Shown here one piece after another: positions 37,966 to 45,774 of a stretch of DNA of 64,000 nt. Below the pieces are notes generated by a model. The model saw only the letters and a list, made by a program, of their open reading frames with translations, was not told where the DNA came from and did no database searches. A program made the translations under genes and the position numbers. The stretch comes from Nostoc edaphicum CCNP1411. GTDB lineage: Bacteria > Cyanobacteriota > Cyanobacteriia > Cyanobacteriales > Nostocaceae. The DNA lies in assembly GCF_014023275.1 (NCBI RefSeq), contig NZ_CP054698.1, positions 5,603,001 to 5,667,000 on the forward strand, in the 5' to 3' direction. The first letter of the stretch is position 1. Each line of letters opens with the position of its first letter.

Positions 37966-38412
37966 TTAAATATTCTGTAAAACCACTTGTTGTACTGTTA
38001 TTTTTAACACAGACAGGTGGTTTTCTAATATTGCGTGGAGTGTATCTTCTATTTCACTGGGATAATGGTAATAGGCAAATTCGTACTTCATAACGTAATT
38101 TAACTTTGCCCATTCCTTCAGAGTTTCACAGGTATAAATTAGCTTTTCCACTTCTTCTTGCCAACGCGCAAAAATCCGGTAGCTAAAAAAGCTGCTGCAT
38201 ATATTTCCTTTTGCATCCCAGTAGGAAATACACACTTGATGCTTCAGAAGGTGGATTTTTTTGATTTGCTTAACGTCGTAGCCTTTAACTTTTAAAGCTT
38301 CTTTGGTTTCTGCGTCAGAAATGTTCCACAGTTCTGGTTTAATTTTATTAGTGGCTATAAAGTTTTTACCTTTGCGGCGATATTGGTTAATTTTGCGTGG
38401 CTTGCGAAACAT
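37966..38412 (-). CDS. Hypothetical protein
   Basis: A 148-residue basic protein I do not recognise. It starts MFRKPRKINQYRRKGKNFIA and contains WNISDAETKEALKVKGYDV and a Tyr-rich segment MKYEFAYYHYPSEIEDTLHA. There is no signal peptide or membrane helix. It converges with prfA 9 bp away and marks the beginning of a lower-GC accessory stretch. The coherent codon pattern and length support a real gene. Confidence 0.6.
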   Translation of the reverse strand: MFRKPRKINQYRRKGKNFIATNKIKPELWNISDAETKEALKVKGYDVKQIKKIHLLKHQVCISYWDAKGNICSSFFSYRIFARWQEEVEKLIYTCETLKEWAKLNYVMKYEFAYYHYPSEIEDTLHAILENHLSVLKITVQQVVLQNI

Positions 38413-38592
38413 GATGCACCTTCGATATTATTTCTTCGCAGCAAAGTTGAGCTACTAGCATAAGCGCCGTAGCAAACTAAGTTTTTTGGGTTGATTAAAG
38501 ATAGATGGGTTATTCTACTAGCTTGATGCCTGTAGTTGCAGATTTACAACCAGAGATATAGTTTAGTACTAAAATACAAGGCTGTCAATATA

Positions 38593-38627
38593 AAAGTAAA
38601 CTTGTAATATTGAAAGTAGACTTGTAA
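38593..38627 (+). promoter_or_regulatory. Two palindromic operator-like sites before the XRE gene
   Basis: AAAGTAAACTTGTAA (38593) and AAAGTAGACTTGTAA (38613) are near-identical, offset by exactly 20 bp and so on the same face of the helix. Each contains the inverted repeat AAGT-N2-ACTT. They end 25 bp before the GTG at 38653, the expected place for autoregulation by the encoded repressor. Confidence 0.6.
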
Positions 38628-38652
38628 ATACAGTTGGCTAGCTATATAAGCA

Positions 38653-39015
38653 GTGAAGATCGAAAGCAAACAAAAACTGATTGAAATCATTAAACTAGCT
38701 CGCGGTTCAATGAGTCAGCGAGCATTTGGTAAGCTTTTGGGGGTATCTGCTACTGCTGTTCAGATGTGGGAAAAAGGTGTGAAGGTGCCAGATACAGAAA
38801 ATTTGGCTCGAATCGCATCGAAAGCAGGCTACACAATGGAAGAGTTAATCAGCTGCATAGATGGCAAGCCAATTCCAGAAACCTCAGATTTGAGTCTGAT
38901 TCTTAGACAAATCCAGCACATGCCTTTGGCTCAAGTAGCTCAAATTGTGCAAGCTGCGGCAGAGAGATTGGCGGCTGTGGCAGAAGCATCTGGGGATGAG
39001 GCGAAGGCTAGTTGA
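38653..39015 (+). CDS. XRE-family helix-turn-helix regulator
   Basis: A 120-residue protein. Residues 5-60 form a Cro/CI-type domain (LARGSMSQRAFGKLLGVSAT, AVQMWEKGVKVPDTENLARI). The remainder is a short helical C-terminus (LILRQIQHMPLAQVAQIVQA) probably used for dimerisation. The GTG start is preceded by two palindromic sites that may be its operators. The target genes are unknown. The DUF29 gene 84 bp downstream, in the same direction, could be co-regulated. Confidence 0.85.
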   Translation: MKIESKQKLIEIIKLARGSMSQRAFGKLLGVSATAVQMWEKGVKVPDTENLARIASKAGYTMEELISCIDGKPIPETSDLSLILRQIQHMPLAQVAQIVQAAAERLAAVAEASGDEAKAS

Positions 39016-39024
39016 ATATTAAAA

Positions 39025-39051
39025 TAATTCGTAATTCGTAATTCGTAATTA
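39025..39051 (+). repeat. TAATTCG heptamer array
   Basis: Three TAATTCG units and one TAATTAA unit stand in tandem between the XRE gene and the DUF29 gene. This is another sequence class of the same 7-bp periodicity. Confidence 0.8.
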
Positions 39052-39098
39052 AGTTTTTTTAACTAGCTCGTGGTTTCTTGCTGTCAAGATTCAACTCT

Positions 39099-39551
39099 AT
39101 GGACAAACCTTTTTTGTATGACCAAGATTTCTATGGCTGGACACAGCAGCAGGCTAAAGCGTTAGAGCAGAGGCTAGTTAAGGAACTAGACTGGCAACAC
39201 CTGCAAGAGGAAATTCAAGCTTTGGGGAGACAGGAGTATCGGGAACTTGTGAGCCGTCTGAGTGTATTACTTGGTCATCTCTTAAAGTGGGAGTTTCAAC
39301 CCGAACAACGCTCTCGCAGTTGGTTTTTAACAATTCGAGAACAGCGCCGCGCCATCAATAGGCATCTGCGGCAGAACCCTAGCTTAAAGTCTCGAATAGA
39401 AGAAGCCTTGTTAGATGGCTTTGAAGCGGGAGTCGATTTGGCGCTACGAGAAACTAACTTACCATTACGAACTTTTCCAGAGCATTGCCCTTATTTATTT
39501 GATGATGCGATCGCAGACAATTTTCTGTGCGATAAGCTGTTACGCAGCTAA
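39099..39551 (+). CDS. DUF29 protein with IS-altered C-terminus
   Basis: A DUF29-family protein of about 150 residues, from the ATG at 39099 (MDKPFLYDQDFYGWTQQQAK). A TTG at 39078 is less likely. Family features are LDWQHLQEEIQALGRQEYRE and the Trp/Arg-rich core LLKWEFQPEQRSRSW. DUF29 proteins are very numerous in cyanobacteria and have no proven function. The last codons, KLLRS and stop, are read from the end of an IS630-type element. Joining the flanks restores GAT ACT CGT CAA GAC TGG GAA GGA TAA, so the ancestral protein ended DTRQDWEG. The truncation is minimal and the protein may still work. Confidence 0.85.
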   Translation: MDKPFLYDQDFYGWTQQQAKALEQRLVKELDWQHLQEEIQALGRQEYRELVSRLSVLLGHLLKWEFQPEQRSRSWFLTIREQRRAINRHLRQNPSLKSRIEEALLDGFEAGVDLALRETNLPLRTFPEHCPYLFDDAIADNFLCDKLLRS

Positions 39552-40724
39552 ATTTAATAAACAGCATTACCTTTATTTTTAATTTTGCGTTCCCATTTAA
39601 TAATAAGACCTCCTTCATTTAACAATTTATTTAACAACTCTTCTAGCTGTGATACTGACTCGAACAATCTATGAGCTATATATTCTTTTGCTGAATGCCA
39701 AACCAATTCAATCAAATTATAATCTGGACTATAAGGTGGTAGAAATTCCAGGATAATATTTGGCATTTCTGCCTTGATACGAACTAAAATATCTTTTCTT
39801 TTATGGAAGCTGGCATTATCTAAGATAATCACTATTTTCGCAGAACATTTATTGAAAGTCTCAATTCTATTTCCTTGCTCTATCCATTCTTGCAATAGAA
39901 AATTATTCAAAGATTGAAGCTGCTCATAAAATACATCGGCATTTCCTTTTTTAATCACAAAATTCATTCTCTTCTTGTCGTGATAACGTAACCCTCCCAT
40001 AATATTTACTCTTCCTCTTCTTCTTTGACCTGTGATTTGTTTCCTTGTACCTTTCTTACCCCAGTTTTTTTCTTCTTATCACTCTTAAACTAAATCCACT
40101 CTCATCCCAAAACCATACCTGTAAACGCTCTGGGGCTTCCTTTGTTATTCTTAAGTATTCTGACAATTTTTCTTTAAATGCCTTACGCATTTCAGGATTC
40201 TGTTTGTCCTCTAGGCTGTATTTTGCCCAAAGGTAAACGTACTTTTTTTCGCTCTAATATTCTCCCAACTTGTGAACCACTTAACTTAATTCCTGTTATC
40301 TTTTCGAGGTATGTAGCTAGTCTTGCTGCTGTCCAACGACCAAATTCATACCCATACTCTAGTGGCTCTTTTTCAATTATTTCTAATAATAAATCCTCAT
40401 ATTCTTTGGTAACTTTGCGGAAGTTCCCTTCTCTTCTTCCATCTAAAAAACTTTCTAGGTTATCTGGATCGCCGTGAACTGCCCAATATGCTACTGTTGG
40501 ATATGCAATATCTAAAAACTTACTAATCTCTTGATAAGTTTTTCCATCATTCATTAATAATAAAATCAGAATCTTTTCTCTTACGTAGGGATTTTCATGC
40601 TCTTTTAGCGTTTTTAGTAGCCTTTCCTTCTGCTCTTGGGAAAGATGATTTTTTGCTGGCATAGATGGCTGATACTAAATTAATTACTTAATCTAATATT
40701 ATACAATCTAGCTGCGTAACAGCT
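39535..40724 (-). mobile_element. IS630-type insertion sequence with TA target duplication
   Basis: The 1,190-bp element has terminal inverted repeats. The left end (39535) reads AGCTGTTACGCAGCTAAATT and the right end, read inward from 40724, AGCTGTTACGCAGCTAGATT, 19 of 20 identical. Both flanks are TA (39533-39534 and 40725-40726), the duplication made by IS630/Tc1-type transposition. The interior is a minus-strand transposase gene broken into three frames. It interrupts the DUF29 gene at its eighth-last codon. Confidence 0.92.
39554..40662 (-). pseudogene. IS630-type transposase in three reading frames
   Basis: The N-terminal part (40662-40192) is a helix-turn-helix region (KTYQEISKFLDIAYPTVAYW). 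At an A7 run near 40245 the homology moves to another frame (KYVYLWAKYSLEDKQNPEMR, then WFWDESGFSL with the first catalytic Asp). At a second A7 run near 40068 it moves again to the third frame (NWGKKGTRKQITGQ, then IILDNASFHK and FLPPYSPDYNLIELVW with the other acidic residues of the DDE triad). Removing one A from each run gives one continuous protein. Either the element is dead, RNA polymerase slippage on the A7 runs restores it, or the runs are sequencing errors. Confidence 0.88.
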
Positions 40725-40801
40725 TACTCGTCAAGACTGGGAAGGATAATTCCTGCCATTTTCCTTACGAGCATTTGTTATTTAGAGACACGTTATATTT
40801 G

Positions 40802-41539
40802 TTAATAAATAATAGAAACTAGTTTTTCAAAATCTTGAAAATCACAGCTTTGCTGTTTTTTCACATCTTGAAAATATATATCGTAGTAGAGCTTATTGTC
40901 TTGAAATTTGAAGAAAGATCCTACTATGGGTAACTGCTCACCTTTTAGCCTAAAAACTATTCTGTTAAGTTTATATTTCCCATATTGATTAACAAGATAA
41001 ACAAAACTATCAAAACTTCCATTTACAGCTTTTTCAAATTCTAGTAGATTTTTATCTAATTTATTAGAACTTTGCAAGATTAAAGGTGGTATATCTTCAA
41101 GGCTATTGAGATTATTATCCGTAAATACTGTGTCTTTTTTTATATAAGCAATAATTTGATGATAATTATATAAAATACCAATTTCTGAACAAGATTTATT
41201 TAGGTATCTTTCAATCTGCTTCTCATGATTCCGCAAGTTTTCTTCTTCTCGCTTCACTTCCACAATCATTAGAGGAGGGCAATATGGTTTAAAATATTCA
41301 TTTTCCGCAGTTTTATATAATTCTATATCGTGATTATTAGATTCCACTCTTATATCAATTTCATTCGGGAATAATCCACTTTGATTTACCAAAAAGTAGA
41401 TAAACAATTGCCTAACTTTTTCTTCTGGTCGTCCATTAAGAACAATTTCCCGACCTCTAATCAAACACTTTGTATATTCTGCATAGTTTCTCTTATATAT
41501 ATTTAGTTTTTGGGATATTTCTTCACTTAAGCTAGTCAT
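40802..41539 (-). CDS. PD-(D/E)XK nuclease, HsdR-N-like, partner of the upstream GTPase
   Basis: A 245-residue protein resembling the N-terminal nuclease domain of type I restriction subunits. A helix with RPEEKVRQLFIYFLV provides Glu39/Glu40. The core strands give Asp71 (NHDIELY) and Glu94-Val-Lys96 (MIVEVKRE), the D...ExK signature. Gln107 and the RYL segment after it fit the following helix. The C-terminal 110 residues are specific to this protein. It lies 87 bp downstream of the GTPase gene on the same strand, so the two probably form an operon. No methyltransferase or helicase is adjacent, so it is not an ordinary restriction enzyme. AT-rich, possibly acquired. Confidence 0.7.
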   Translation of the reverse strand: MTSLSEEISQKLNIYKRNYAEYTKCLIRGREIVLNGRPEEKVRQLFIYFLVNQSGLFPNEIDIRVESNNHDIELYKTAENEYFKPYCPPLMIVEVKREEENLRNHEKQIERYLNKSCSEIGILYNYHQIIAYIKKDTVFTDNNLNSLEDIPPLILQSSNKLDKNLLEFEKAVNGSFDSFVYLVNQYGKYKLNRIVFRLKGEQLPIVGSFFKFQDNKLYYDIYFQDVKKQQSCDFQDFEKLVSIIY

Positions 41540-41626
41540 AGATAATCAGGTTTTTTTATCAACTGGTTCTAGGGACACAAGATTATTGCATCCCTTAGTA
41601 TTTTCTATACAATTTTAAATTGCTAT

Positions 41627-43666
41627 CTATTTTTCTCCGAAAAAGCTTAATATTTTAGCAACTAATTTCTTCCAAGACTTTACTGCTTGAATCTCTAAAA
41701 ATGTATTTAAACTTTCTTCTTTTTCAAGTTCGTGCTTCAAAGTCTGACATACATTATCTGTATAGGTTTCACCTGGAGGTCTTACCTTTCCCTTTTCCTT
41801 AATTAGAGCCGTCCAGAAATCAGAATCTTCTTTTTGAGGTGATAATTTTCTTTTAGCTTCCTTTTGAATCTCTTTTCCTACTTCACTTATAAAATTGTCA
41901 TACAAGGAGTTAAATTGTATAACTAGTTCAGGGATAAGTGTCTTTAAAGATTCATTTGCAGATGTCAGGTCATTCAGGATATTTTCTAGTTCCTGTTTTG
42001 CTTCTTTAGTAAACTTCTTTAACATTTCATCTTCATCCATTCCCTCAGCAAAAACTCTCATATCATAATATATATCTATATTCCTTGGCTCATAGGAACC
42101 AAAGTTGCGATGAATAGCGTGTTTGGTATTCCATGCTTTATAAACAGTACGATAGTATTCAATATATTTAGTAACAAAACCTTTATCTAGACCTTGATCT
42201 TTATAAACAAAACTAGGTACTCTTTTACTCAAATCCCGCAAATCCTTTATCTTCTGAATGGCTTTTTCTATTGCCTTGATTTCTGATCCTGTCAAAGCGT
42301 CACCATTTTTTATTCTCGTAAAGCTTTCTGTAATATCCTTGATTTCGTCTAATAAAATATTTCGTCTACGTTCCACTACACCCACTATGGCTTCAATGAA
42401 TTCATTCTTATCTGCTTGTACATCTTCTTCACTGTAAATATCAGTATTTAGCTTGACTATATCATCACGGTAGTATCTCAAAGCATCATAGAACAAAATA
42501 TTTTCTAGGAAAAAATCTAAATTCAAATTCCTGAATGTAGCTTGAACTTCTTCTTTTCTGATTTGAATTCCTGCATCCCAATCTCCATCACATCCATGCA
42601 CTTTTTCAGGTTGATTTTTGTGAGTCAAGACCAAAGTTACAAATCTATGATGAAAATCTTTAGATTTAGATGTAAGATGATAACCTATTAATTTTCTAAT
42701 ATTAGCTTCAGGAGCATCATTAAATGAAGTGACAAAGAGACAGATAGTATCCTGATTCTCAATATATTTCTGCAAGTCTTTACGAATTGGATTTTCATCA
42801 AGTCCTTTAGTATCTACAACTGAATCAAACTGAGACAAGTTTGAGCCAGATAAAACATCATAGCTCACATTTAGATATATTTTTCTGGGAATAGCAAATT
42901 CCTTAAATTCAACATTATTGATGGCAGCAAAGACATTTTTTATCCATTCTTTCTCATTTGTTTGATTATCAAATTCAATCTTATTCGTAGTCCTATATTC
43001 CAGCTTTGCATTATTCAACGCATTTTTTTTAACTTCCTCAAGCCCTAATAAATCAAATTTTTCCTTAGCTGGATCAATTATTTCAGTTTTCTTTTTCTCT
43101 CCCTCATAAATTGTTTTATATTGCAACTTCATTTCTATGATATTTCTAATAGCCCTTTCAATTTCTTTAGAAATAATTATCTTCTGATCTGTTTGAAGAT
43201 TGTCTTTGTCTTTATCTGCAATATAGTCACAAAATTCAAAAATCAGATTTTCCATTTCATCAACTGTATAAGGCTCTATTTCTATGTAAGTTTTTACCGC
43301 AGCTTTGATAATTACTTCACATATAGTAGTTTTACCTGCTCCGGTTGATAGTAACTCTTTAGTTTCAATTACATTTCGAGACTTGTTAGCAATAGTTTTT
43401 GAAACATTGAAGTCGCTTATTAAATTAAAAAGATGGCAAATAGCTGTGGTTTTTCCTTCTCCAATAGTACCTATAAAAACAATTTTATATTTTTCTATAC
43501 TAAGGATGTTTTCTATTTCATCTAATCGCTCTAACTTGGATTTTAGGTTATTGATGCAAATATAATTAGGTATATTAATCTCAGAATGATCTGAAATTTT
43601 ATTTATTTCCTTCCTCAAATCTTGTTTCAAAGATGCGATCTCTTCTTGCCACGTTATCGTCAACAT
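41627..43666 (-). CDS. Large P-loop GTPase (dynamin-like or GTPase-defence type)
   Basis: A 679-residue protein. Residues 66-73 (GTIGEGKT) form a Walker A motif after a short helical N-terminus. About 35 residues later STGAGKTTICEV looks like a switch I region that resembles a second P-loop. VVDTKGLDEN (Asp285, Gly288) is the G3/Walker B motif and LVLTHKNQ (about 346-352) sits where the G4 base-recognition motif belongs. A long, mostly helical C-terminal half (430-650) follows, ending in the amphipathic segment SWKKLVAKILSFFGEK. This layout recalls dynamin-like GTPases. It is the first gene of a two-gene operon with the nuclease at 40802. A role in phage defence is inferred from the pairing and the setting only. 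Confidence 0.65.
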   Translation of the reverse strand: MLTITWQEEIASLKQDLRKEINKISDHSEINIPNYICINNLKSKLERLDEIENILSIEKYKIVFIGTIGEGKTTAICHLFNLISDFNVSKTIANKSRNVIETKELLSTGAGKTTICEVIIKAAVKTYIEIEPYTVDEMENLIFEFCDYIADKDKDNLQTDQKIIISKEIERAIRNIIEMKLQYKTIYEGEKKKTEIIDPAKEKFDLLGLEEVKKNALNNAKLEYRTTNKIEFDNQTNEKEWIKNVFAAINNVEFKEFAIPRKIYLNVSYDVLSGSNLSQFDSVVDTKGLDENPIRKDLQKYIENQDTICLFVTSFNDAPEANIRKLIGYHLTSKSKDFHHRFVTLVLTHKNQPEKVHGCDGDWDAGIQIRKEEVQATFRNLNLDFFLENILFYDALRYYRDDIVKLNTDIYSEEDVQADKNEFIEAIVGVVERRRNILLDEIKDITESFTRIKNGDALTGSEIKAIEKAIQKIKDLRDLSKRVPSFVYKDQGLDKGFVTKYIEYYRTVYKAWNTKHAIHRNFGSYEPRNIDIYYDMRVFAEGMDEDEMLKKFTKEAKQELENILNDLTSANESLKTLIPELVIQFNSLYDNFISEVGKEIQKEAKRKLSPQKEDSDFWTALIKEKGKVRPPGETYTDNVCQTLKHELEKEESLNTFLEIQAVKSWKKLVAKILSFFGEK

Positions 43667-44021
43667 ACTGTTTACCCTGTTTCGATGCTTAATTACTTGA
43701 TATTTACAGTATGCCCATTATGGTTAAATATCTAACAACAGCCTCATAACACTACCACCCCCTTCTCTGGTAAGACTTTAGCCACTTGGTTATGAACAAG
43801 GCGATCGCTAATTTTGGCTGAGTTAAAGGTTCTGGTAGAAATACGTAATGGCTGCACAAACTAAGTCCGTCTGCGTGGACTCCAGCAAGTTGAAACCCAC
43901 GGAGATGGGTTTTGTCTGTATAGCTGCGATTTCTAATTGCCAGTGCTAGGGTATTTTACTGGCAGTTAAGGAATAAATGGTTTTAAAATGGTGCAATCTT
44001 AAATGATTTAGGGGTGCAGCT
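43667..44021. other. Intergenic region with gene debris and a dispersed repeat
   Basis: A minus-strand stretch ending in a stop at 43744 reads SDRLVHNQVAKVLPEKGVVV, then L, like the tail of a lost gene. It runs into the double-hairpin repeat at 43850-43941. The region separates the divergent GTPase operon and the gene at 44022 and should hold both promoters. Confidence 0.4.
43850..43941 (+). repeat. Double-hairpin dispersed element
   Basis: Two hairpins in a row, AGTCC/GGACT around GTCTGCGT and AACCCA/TGGGTT around CGGAGA, are framed by GGCTGCACAAACTAAG and TGTATAGCTGCGATTTCTAA. From memory this resembles a repeat common between Nostoc genes (hairpins flanked by TGTGTAGC..GCGATTTCTAAT). Only one copy is in the window. 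Confidence 0.5.
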
Positions 44022-44519
44022 ATGTCGCTACGCAATGAGCCTTTAGATTGGCAACTTGAAACGAATAATCCTTATATACCAGTTTATCATCAAGGTAATT
44101 TGGTGGGATTTTTTAAACCAGAATATGCCAGTGAAGTTATTAAAATTTTAAACGAAGAAGAAGTTTTAAAGAAAGCACTAAAAATGGCTTGTACTGATTT
44201 AATTAAAAAAATCGGTGGCGATACCAGAAAAGTCAATTATTTAATGGAAAAATATGTAAAAACTAGTGAACGTCCAAAGCATGGAACTAGAGCGATCGCA
44301 GTTTTACTTCAGGATAGGCAAAAAGAGCTTGATTTGAGTAATCAGGAGTTTGCTAAATTCTGCGACACCTTTAAATTATCTCCGACTGAACTGAATAATA
44401 TTTATGCTGGAGAAACATTTGATGATAGTTTGTTAGCGCCACTATCACGTATATTAGGTATGGCAAAAGAGCAATTGCTGAAAGTGCGAGATGGTTCTGA
44501 AGAATCAAGCAACACATAA
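44022..44519 (+). CDS. Hypothetical protein with HTH-like C-terminus
   Basis: A 165-residue protein not assigned to a named family. The N-terminus (YIPVYHQGNLVGFFKPEYAS) looks like a small beta domain. The C-terminal part (VLLQDRQKELDLSNQEFAKF, then LSPTELNNIYAG) looks like a degenerate XRE-type helix-turn-helix. It lies 34 bp before the Rpn-like nuclease gene and may be its regulator or a co-expressed partner. No membrane segment. Confidence 0.6.
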   Translation: MSLRNEPLDWQLETNNPYIPVYHQGNLVGFFKPEYASEVIKILNEEEVLKKALKMACTDLIKKIGGDTRKVNYLMEKYVKTSERPKHGTRAIAVLLQDRQKELDLSNQEFAKFCDTFKLSPTELNNIYAGETFDDSLLAPLSRILGMAKEQLLKVRDGSEESSNT

Positions 44520-44553
44520 ATAGCAAATCAGAATCTTCAAATCAGATAAAATT

Positions 44554-45411
44554 GTGAAAACAGACATCATTTTTTATCGGCTGTTTCAAGAATTCCCTGA
44601 TATCTTCTTTGAACTTATTGGTAATCCTCCAGAAGAAGCTAGCCTTTATCAATTTTCATCAGTTGAAATCAAACAAACAGCCTTCAGAATCGATGGTGTA
44701 TTTCTTCCTACACAAGGAAGCGAGAACCCGATTTACTTTGTTGAAGTGCAATTTCAAGCTGATGGGGAAATTTATTCACGGCTAATTGCAGAAATATGTT
44801 TATACCTCCGTCAGAATCAACCATCTAATGATTGGGGTGCTGTGGTTTTATACCCAAACAGGAATGTAGATACAGGCAATATCAAACATTACCGTGAGTT
44901 TTTCACAAGTGGGCGCGTCAGACGCATTTATTTGGATGAATTAGGTGAAGGTGCATCGCTTCCAATTGGCATTGCAACTGCTAAATTAGTAATTGCAACC
45001 GACGATATAGCGATCGCACAAGCAAGAGAGTTGATAGACAGAACTAAGTCAGAAATAAGTTCACCACCAAAACAGCAGCAATTATTACAATTTATAGAGA
45101 CTATTTTGGCTTATAAGTTTCCCACAATGAGTAGGGAGGAGATGCAGCAAATGTTTGGATTAAGCGAGTTAAAGCAAACCAGATTTTATCAGGAAGCCTT
45201 TCAGGAGGGTGTTGAACAAGGTAAGGTTCAAGGCATCGAACAAGGCATCGAACAAGGTAAGGTTCAAGGCATTGAACAAGGTAGGGTTCAAGGCATTGAA
45301 GAAGGTAAACTCAAAGCAGTACCAGCAATGTTAGCAGCCGGGTTGACTGTAGAACAAGTAGCACAGGCGCTAGATTTGAGTGTCGAAGAAGTCAGACAAG
45401 CCGTGCAGTAG
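44554..45411 (+). CDS. Rpn/PD-(D/E)XK family nuclease (DUF2887-like)
   Basis: A 285-residue member of the cyanobacterial group related to Rpn/PDDEXK transposase-like proteins. It opens DIIFYRLFQEFPDIFFELIG. Asp47 (FRIDGVFLP) and Glu64-Val-Gln66 (YFVEVQFQ) form the D...ExQ nuclease signature. After about residue 205 comes a low-complexity array of EQGKVQGI units. A closing segment LTVEQVAQALDLSVEEVRQA predicts a small helical domain. Such genes are multicopy in cyanobacteria and their function is not established. The GTG start lies 34 bp after the preceding stop. Confidence 0.82.
   Translation: MKTDIIFYRLFQEFPDIFFELIGNPPEEASLYQFSSVEIKQTAFRIDGVFLPTQGSENPIYFVEVQFQADGEIYSRLIAEICLYLRQNQPSNDWGAVVLYPNRNVDTGNIKHYREFFTSGRVRRIYLDELGEGASLPIGIATAKLVIATDDIAIAQARELIDRTKSEISSPPKQQQLLQFIETILAYKFPTMSREEMQQMFGLSELKQTRFYQEAFQEGVEQGKVQGIEQGIEQGKVQGIEQGRVQGIEEGKLKAVPAMLAAGLTVEQVAQALDLSVEEVRQAVQ
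45211..45306 (+). repeat. In-frame 24-bp tandem repeat in the Rpn-like gene
   Basis: Units of 24 bp (GAACAAGGTAAGGTTCAAGG plus CATC or CATT) coding EQGKVQGI recur with a 12-bp half unit between them. The length probably varies between strains by slippage, in whole codons. Confidence 0.85.
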
Positions 45412-45438
45412 GATTCTTCTGATCAAGGAGTAGAGGAA

Positions 45439-45774
45439 TTGGTAGACTACAACATAGGAACTAGAAGTTTCAAAGATACAAAAATTTATCAAGAAGCATT
45501 TGAAGAAGGGCGTTTGGAAGGTTTACGGCAATCAGTACCTCGTCTATTAGATTTAGCGTTAACTATTGAGCAAGTTGCGGAGGGATTAGGTTTAACTATA
45601 AACCAAGTTCAAAACGCGAAACTCTATCATGATGGCATCCAAATAGGGGAGCGTATAGCCAAATTAAAATTAATACCCACCTTATTAAAATTTGGGGTGA
45701 CAGTGGAACAAGTGGCTGAGGCATTTGATTTCAGTGTCGAAGAAGTCAGACAAGTCGCACAAAGCCAGCCTTAA
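45439..45774 (+). CDS. C-terminal fragment related to the Rpn-like protein
   Basis: A 111-residue product starting at TTG behind AAGGAG. FKDTKIYQEAFEEGRLEGLR resembles the neighbour's KQTRFYQEAFQEGVEQG. VTVEQVAEAFDFSVEEVRQV closely matches its end, and a second weaker copy (LTIEQVAEGLGLTINQVQNA) lies in the middle. The nuclease domain is missing. It is either the remnant of a duplicated gene or a small protein made only of the helical domain, which appears twice. Confidence 0.55.
   Translation: MVDYNIGTRSFKDTKIYQEAFEEGRLEGLRQSVPRLLDLALTIEQVAEGLGLTINQVQNAKLYHDGIQIGERIAKLKLIPTLLKFGVTVEQVAEAFDFSVEEVRQVAQSQP

Follow-up and report, generated by a model that had tools for sequence, protein, structure and literature searches.

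A conserved pair of dynamin-like GTPase and HsdR-N-type nuclease genes in cyanobacteria, a candidate defence module

The gene pair of Nostoc edaphicum

This report deals with a two-gene unit of Nostoc edaphicum CCNP1411, whose genome of 8.3 Mb comes in 6 contigs. Positions refer to the window, that is, the whole stretch of 64,000 nucleotides that was analysed. Both genes lie on the minus strand of the chromosome, between prfA on one side and an ABC-F gene and gpmI on the other. The upstream gene (41627..43666, read from 43666 to 41627) encodes a 679-residue GTPase with a predicted dynamin-like fold, and the downstream gene (40802..41539, read from 41539 to 40802) encodes a 245-residue PD-(D/E)XK nuclease, with an intergenic gap of 87 bp between them (41540..41626, minus strand). 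A preliminary description of the window had already reported these two open reading frames (ORFs), with the same sizes, order and gap, and had proposed that they form an undescribed defence module.

Both genes are poor in G+C (0.309 for the GTPase gene and 0.283 for the nuclease gene, against 0.421 for the window). The same holds in all 27 related loci measured, where the GTPase genes (0.296-0.329) and the nuclease genes (0.229-0.285) fall below their flanks (0.388-0.439). In related loci the two genes range from overlapping by 14 bp to standing 171 bp apart, counted to the start of the longest ORF, and the strand is always the same.

The GTPase is composed of N-terminal helices (residues 1-57), a G domain (roughly residues 58-440, of which 117-258 varies more), and a stalk-like helical region (453-679). 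The Walker A motif G66-T-I-G-E-G-K72-T73 and the G3 motif DTKG at 285-288 stand where the preliminary description had placed them. Among 119 sequences (the query and the best 120 of 376 matches, minus two short ones), the residues G66, G69, G71, K72, T73, T74, D285, T286, and G288 are invariant, and the stretches G66xxGxGKTT74, T108-G-x-G-x-TT114 and DTKG 285-288 are kept throughout, save for one S at position 113. Variability peaks at residues 181-200, and no clear hypervariable loop was seen in the stalk along this alignment.

What had been called a P-loop GTPase is, more specifically, a dynamin-like protein by its predicted fold. It shares with the dynamin superfamily a large G domain in which the G1 motif, the G3 motif, and the switch threonine are all present, and the layout of G domain, helical bundle, and stalk. 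At the sequence level, Pfam Dynamin_N matches two of 42 members of the GTPase family (best E 5.5e-4) and leaves the query itself unmatched, the PADLOC model for LeoBC gives no match (E 0.23, 8.5 bits), and PDB sequence searches contain no dynamin among their matches, which are to FtsY and at the P-loop level only (E 0.006 with the single sequence, 9e-5 with a profile). Hydropathy analysis found no membrane-spanning segment (top 19-residue Kyte-Doolittle mean 1.16), and the protein may bind membranes peripherally.

The nuclease carries an HsdR-N-type domain (residues 34-162) with the fold and catalytic residues of the N-terminal nuclease of type I HsdR, supported by a profile match to HSDR_N_2 (E 7.3e-9) and the predicted fold. 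The catalytic residues D71, E94, and K96, named earlier, as well as Q108 and Y112, which form a QxxxY motif, are invariant in 118 of 118 sequences (the query and the best 120 of 124 matches, minus three short ones). The likeness to type I enzymes pointed out in the preliminary description thus stands, whereas a second domain had gone unmentioned: a C-terminal helix and five-stranded barrel (residues 177-245), Hfq/Sm-like by predicted fold only. Since Hfq homology is supported neither by Pfam nor by profile comparison, only a resemblance of fold is claimed for this barrel. A PDB profile search with the nuclease returned zero matches, and against PHROGs the nuclease alone gives a weak match to phrog_4225, an endonuclease (E 2.2e-5 across 39 residues). 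The idea that it is a decayed HsdR remnant was rejected, given its preserved full length, its own C-terminal domain, and its conserved active site.

Conservation and decay of the pair

Among 40 cyanobacterial loci listed, 36 were counted, since the GTPases of L044, L045, L047, and L062, which have no nuclease beside them, are of a distant type with at most about 35% identity. In 35 of these 36 loci (GTPase identity of at least 42%), the nuclease gene immediately follows the GTPase gene on the same strand, in agreement with the adjacency that the preliminary description had suggested checking. This count includes L042, where only a 104-residue nuclease remnant is left, and the sole miss is L041, whose contig ends 58 bp past the GTPase gene. 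L012 and L027, and likewise L013 and L036, seemingly come from the same genomes. Kept outside the 40 were a 29-residue GTPase remnant (L015, G199), a second piece of the L013 gene (L016), and a 24%-identical plasmid fragment (L007). The pair ranges over Nostoc, Anabaena, Nodularia, Calothrix, and Aliterella. It extends to Spirulina at 56% identity, and Phormidium and Pseudanabaena have it at 42-43%, in one case plasmid-borne. As a separate observation, a second cyanobacterial GTPase type of about 35% identity is present in L044, L045, and L047, with no nuclease gene adjoining, and also in G416, G427, and G429.

The pairwise distances of GTPase and nuclease correlate closely over 26 pairs (r = 0.93). 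The ratio of nonsynonymous to synonymous substitution rates (dN/dS) is 0.15-0.35 in the 12 GTPase comparisons; 11 of the 12 nuclease comparisons give 0.13-0.32, the outlier of 0.47 coming from a pair with a synonymous rate (dS) of just 0.015. Judged from these sequence comparisons, both genes are under purifying selection, and because dN/dS stays at 0.13-0.35 in 23 of 24 of them, this is not a chance pair of ORFs. GTPase and nuclease form a real unit.

The pair is a dispensable, repeatedly lost, and fairly fast-evolving module. Across the phylum, 8 of 386 genomes matched, including the source genome itself and the 29-residue remnant, and an alignment search returned the same eight. Within the genus, 24 of 53 genomes matched and 29 did not. 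All 14 intact congeneric GTPases of this type have an adjacent full-length nuclease, whereas 7 of 21 full-length nucleases adjoin a broken GTPase (G419, G399, G422, G401, G167, G376, and G406); in G167, G401, and G419, fragments alone of the neighbouring GTPase were detected. In addition, three genomes (G391, G423, and G427) contain pieces of the GTPase but no match to the nuclease, and three others (G386, G278, and G392) contain remnants of the nuclease but no match to the GTPase. At the site occupied in the window, defined by position relative to gpmI, the genus holds eight intact and six decayed GTPase copies. The intact ones are 83-85% identical to the query, while gpmI is 91-98% identical in the same genomes.

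Distant relatives beside defence genes

Relatives of the GTPase with about 20-28% identity, alignment-wide, are found in Proteobacteria, Campylobacterota, Firmicutes, myxobacteria, Planctomycetes, Acidobacteria, Verrucomicrobia, and others. Many of these relatives carry an N-terminal helix-turn-helix (HTH) domain: in alignment A3, with 42 members, 20 of them distant, HTH_31 matches 11, and the five proteobacterial plasmid genes opened are all annotated as XRE or HTH. Phage records gave no match to the GTPase, and a scan of viral contigs gave just two distant relatives (L096 and L097).

Gene neighbourhoods were compared in 54 non-cyanobacterial loci, consisting of five plasmid loci (7 of 20 plasmid matches were opened, two of them cyanobacterial), the genomic loci L048-L061 and L063-L095, and the two viral contigs. 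A known or candidate defence gene adjoins the GTPase, or is fused to it, in at least 20 of the 54, many neighbours being unannotated. In 14 of these the gene was scanned directly (L004, L006, L049, L050, L053, L054, L066, L067, L071, L076, L082, L085, L088, and L091), and in the other six the assignment follows from clustering or likeness (L057, L072, L080, L089, L094, and L095); L048 (PglW, E 8e-9) and L083 (HmaA, E 4e-11) were left out as weak. The partners are GajA or GajB (L057, L066, L080, and L082, and upstream in L072), type I restriction-modification (R-M) genes (L050, L053, L067, L071, and L072), PtuA of Septu (L006), HEC-02 (L049), DUF262 (L004 and L089), PD-Lambda-5_B (L076), LmuB-like genes (L085 and L088, the latter also with PDC-M01A), an OLD/AriA-like ATPase (L054), and a C-terminal ABC-type ATPase fused to the GTPase itself (scanned in L091; L094 and L095 by equal length and shared partner). 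The companion GTPase is HTH-fused in the Gabija and Septu loci and in the type I loci L071 and L072, and not in L050, L053, or L067. In a midpoint-rooted FastTree tree, the nuclease-paired cyanobacterial GTPases form one group, and the type I companions fall into two distant groups, which indicates that the partner of the GTPase changes (tree supports were not examined).

Some of these loci are worth describing on their own. In L057, L066, L080, and L082, the GTPase gene lies just upstream of the Gabija-type genes (GajA was scanned in L066 and L082, GajB in L066, and the others were placed by clustering), making it a candidate undescribed Gabija companion gene. The fusions of L091, L094, and L095 are proteins of about 1010 residues adjoining a 290-residue protein, whose copy in L095 has no Pfam or PADLOC match. 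In L050 (Vibrio metoecus), the GTPase and type I R-M genes adjoin a TniQ of the type I-F CRISPR-transposon family and are possibly transposon cargo. Closely related GTPases of about 620 residues in the gammaproteobacterial loci L058, L060, L061, L065, and L073 lie amid runs of small same-strand genes, which are candidate integron cassettes.

Comparison with known systems

In McrBC and CoCoNuTs, which are type IV, GTP-dependent restriction systems, a GTPase gene is likewise followed by a PD-(D/E)XK nuclease gene, and the working principle would be similar. However, McrB is an AAA+ GTPase, whereas the GTPase described here is dynamin-like, and McrB and McrC profiles gave no match with E values up to 10 in PADLOC and up to 1 in Pfam. 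Contrary to type I R-M (HsdR, HsdM, and HsdS), the nuclease stands alone as a 245-residue protein that has a C-terminal domain of its own, and the scanned neighbours include neither a translocase motor nor a methyltransferase or specificity subunit. As had been noted previously, no methyltransferase, specificity subunit, or helicase is encoded by the eight neighbouring ORFs scanned (37966-45774) or by five housekeeping ORFs farther out. Nor is there a cluster of HsdM, HsdS, and an ATP-driven motor among the shared neighbours of the cyanobacterial pair loci, the rest of the genome not having been searched for type I genes. Even though the companion GTPases of Gabija, Septu, and type I R-M loci belong to the same family (21-25% identity) and lie beside GajAB, PtuA, or Hsd genes, none of those loci carries the HsdR-N nuclease gene of the cyanobacterial pair.

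Eleos/LeoBC (PADLOC), the Dynamins of DefenseFinder, and Bacillus DynA are the closest dynamin defence systems. LeoABC reportedly pairs dynamins with dynamins, whereas here the partner is a nuclease. DynA protects Bacillus subtilis populations against phages by acting at the membrane, where it delays lysis, according to the portion of PMC8844932 consulted, whereas no membrane segment is predicted here. DO-GTPase/GAP1 systems resemble the pair as GTPase-centred conflict systems with swappable effectors, but they include a GAP1 protein and belong to a different TRAFAC family, as outlined in the consulted part of Kaur et al. 2020 (PMC7159879), and the GTPase matches no DO-GTPase profile. As far as these partial sources go, DynA and the DO-GTPase systems are the nearest themes in print. 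Dynamins are also mentioned as a defence category in excerpts of PMC12595487, PMC12629846, PMC11811056, and PMC13335696, and the sections consulted of PMC11090510 and PMC5827413 contain nothing on a GTPase-nuclease pair. Pfam, NCBIfam, PADLOC, and PHROGs contain no model naming the pair, in line with the preliminary description, which had recognised no named system. Literature searches, which did not extend to preprints and so do not establish absence from print, found no description of the pair, nor any of a GTPase accompanying Gabija or type I R-M. By analogy, the pair would work like McrBC or a switch-effector system, yet it belongs to none of these system families, since the tests for McrB, LeoBC, and a complete type I system fail.

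Proposed mechanism and alternative explanations

The pair is probably an undescribed anti-phage system, set within a broader family of dynamin-like GTPases associated with defence. We lean, with some reserve, towards a two-gene anti-phage or, more broadly, anti-invader module in which a GTPase switch would license the nuclease. The soluble GTPase would act as sensor and switch and bind nucleotide; upon an infection-specific cue, it would dimerise or assemble and then recruit or activate the HsdR-N-type nuclease, which would cut DNA. As no methyltransferase is encoded with the pair to mark self DNA, specificity would come from the GTPase switch. We infer that the pair serves in defence, that its two proteins interact physically, that the nuclease is activated and not inhibited, that it acts on DNA, and that an infection-specific cue is the trigger. 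This reading draws on the conserved pairing, the catalytic motifs in both proteins, the predicted folds, the purifying selection, the patchy presence with repeated decay, and the defence neighbours of distant relatives.

Several points weigh against it. The co-divergence of the two proteins is also expected from simple linkage. The G4 candidate at 349-352 is mostly (H/R/K)-K-x-(E/Q) instead of the guanine-specificity consensus [NT]KxD, so that specificity for GTP is only putative, and with Foldseek alone the nuclease has no match at E of 0.001 or below (best DrdV, 4.5e-3). As for the link to defence, the relatives that lie near known defence genes are distant ones, with 21-25% identity over their length and no gene for this nuclease, and the Nostoc site from prfA to the ABC-F gene and gpmI holds no named defence system. 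The figure of 20 in 54 stands without a background control, in a set that combines loci of a pattern scan with plasmid and viral matches and includes near-duplicates, and PADLOC found nothing in the downstream neighbours of L053, L055, L061, L073, and L085.

A two-gene unit with patchy distribution in an AT-rich accessory position would also suit a toxin-antitoxin-like addiction module, persisting by addiction rather than by defence, with the nuclease as toxin and the GTPase restraining it. We consider this very unlikely. The seven congeneric full-length nucleases beside a broken GTPase, known from their genes alone, suggest that the GTPase is not required to restrain the nuclease, and none of the 14 intact GTPases lacks its nuclease; this pattern would rather fit the GTPase as an activator. 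The direction of decay (7:0) is not significant alone, since the GTPase offers mutations a target 2.8 times as large (0.735^7, about 0.12). Purifying selection and a long-occupied chromosomal site beside gpmI could instead point to a cyanobacterial housekeeping pair for DNA repair, recombination, or chromosome maintenance. This seems unlikely for a pair unmatched in 29 of 53 congeneric genomes, often broken, and less conserved at its site than gpmI, with distant GTPase relatives adjoining Gabija, type I R-M, and Septu. Finally, the predicted fold and the phage protection attributed to DynA would allow a membrane-acting dynamin defence with the nuclease as an independent passenger. The lack of membrane-spanning hydrophobicity in the GTPase, the near-obligate partner with conserved catalytic residues, and the N-terminal HTH of many distant relatives make this rather improbable.

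Mx and other dynamin-related GTPases have an antiviral role in animals, and control of nucleases by dynamin-like GTPases would recall it. Bacterial dynamins have been studied as membrane machines, and the protection by DynA is explained through the membrane in the part of PMC8844932 consulted; the near-obligate dynamin-nuclease pair, together with the wider family beside Gabija, Septu, and type I R-M, suggests that dynamin-like GTPases may also control nucleases. The pair offers a small two-gene system for testing such control directly. A broader and more tentative proposal, which may well not hold, is that widespread soluble, often HTH-bearing dynamin-like GTPases serve as swappable switches for nuclease immunity, in other phyla lying beside Gabija, Septu, or type I R-M genes, and occurring as ABC-type ATPase fusions in myxobacteria and a betaproteobacterium-like bin. 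In cyanobacteria the scheme would be pared down to a restriction machine of just two proteins, whose HsdR-N nuclease bears its own Sm-like barrel. Dynamins would then license DNA cutting directly rather than remodel membranes.

Neighbouring elements of the locus

The AT-rich setting near an insertion sequence (IS) and an Rpn-like gene, reported in the preliminary description, is borne out, with the IS on one side of the pair and the Rpn gene on the other. The IS (39533-40726), which we take to be IS630-like, has 28-nt inverted ends that are 89% complementary, and its transposase is split into two ORFs, an HTH part (40192-40662) and a DDE_3 part (39554-40000). It was found in none of 31 related loci, with the window as positive control, and the notion of the pair as IS cargo was rejected on this ground. 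The Rpn-family gene (44554-45411) matches DUF2887 (E 2.4e-84). It is followed, within 44022-45774, by a 111-residue ORF that looks like a second, truncated Rpn tail. A 165-residue ORF (44022-44519), with no significant Pfam match, has relatives recurring in 11 loci. Also near the GTPase-nuclease module, the stretch 38653-39551 contains an XRE/RstR-like HTH gene and a DUF29 gene, with relatives in eight and nine loci, respectively.
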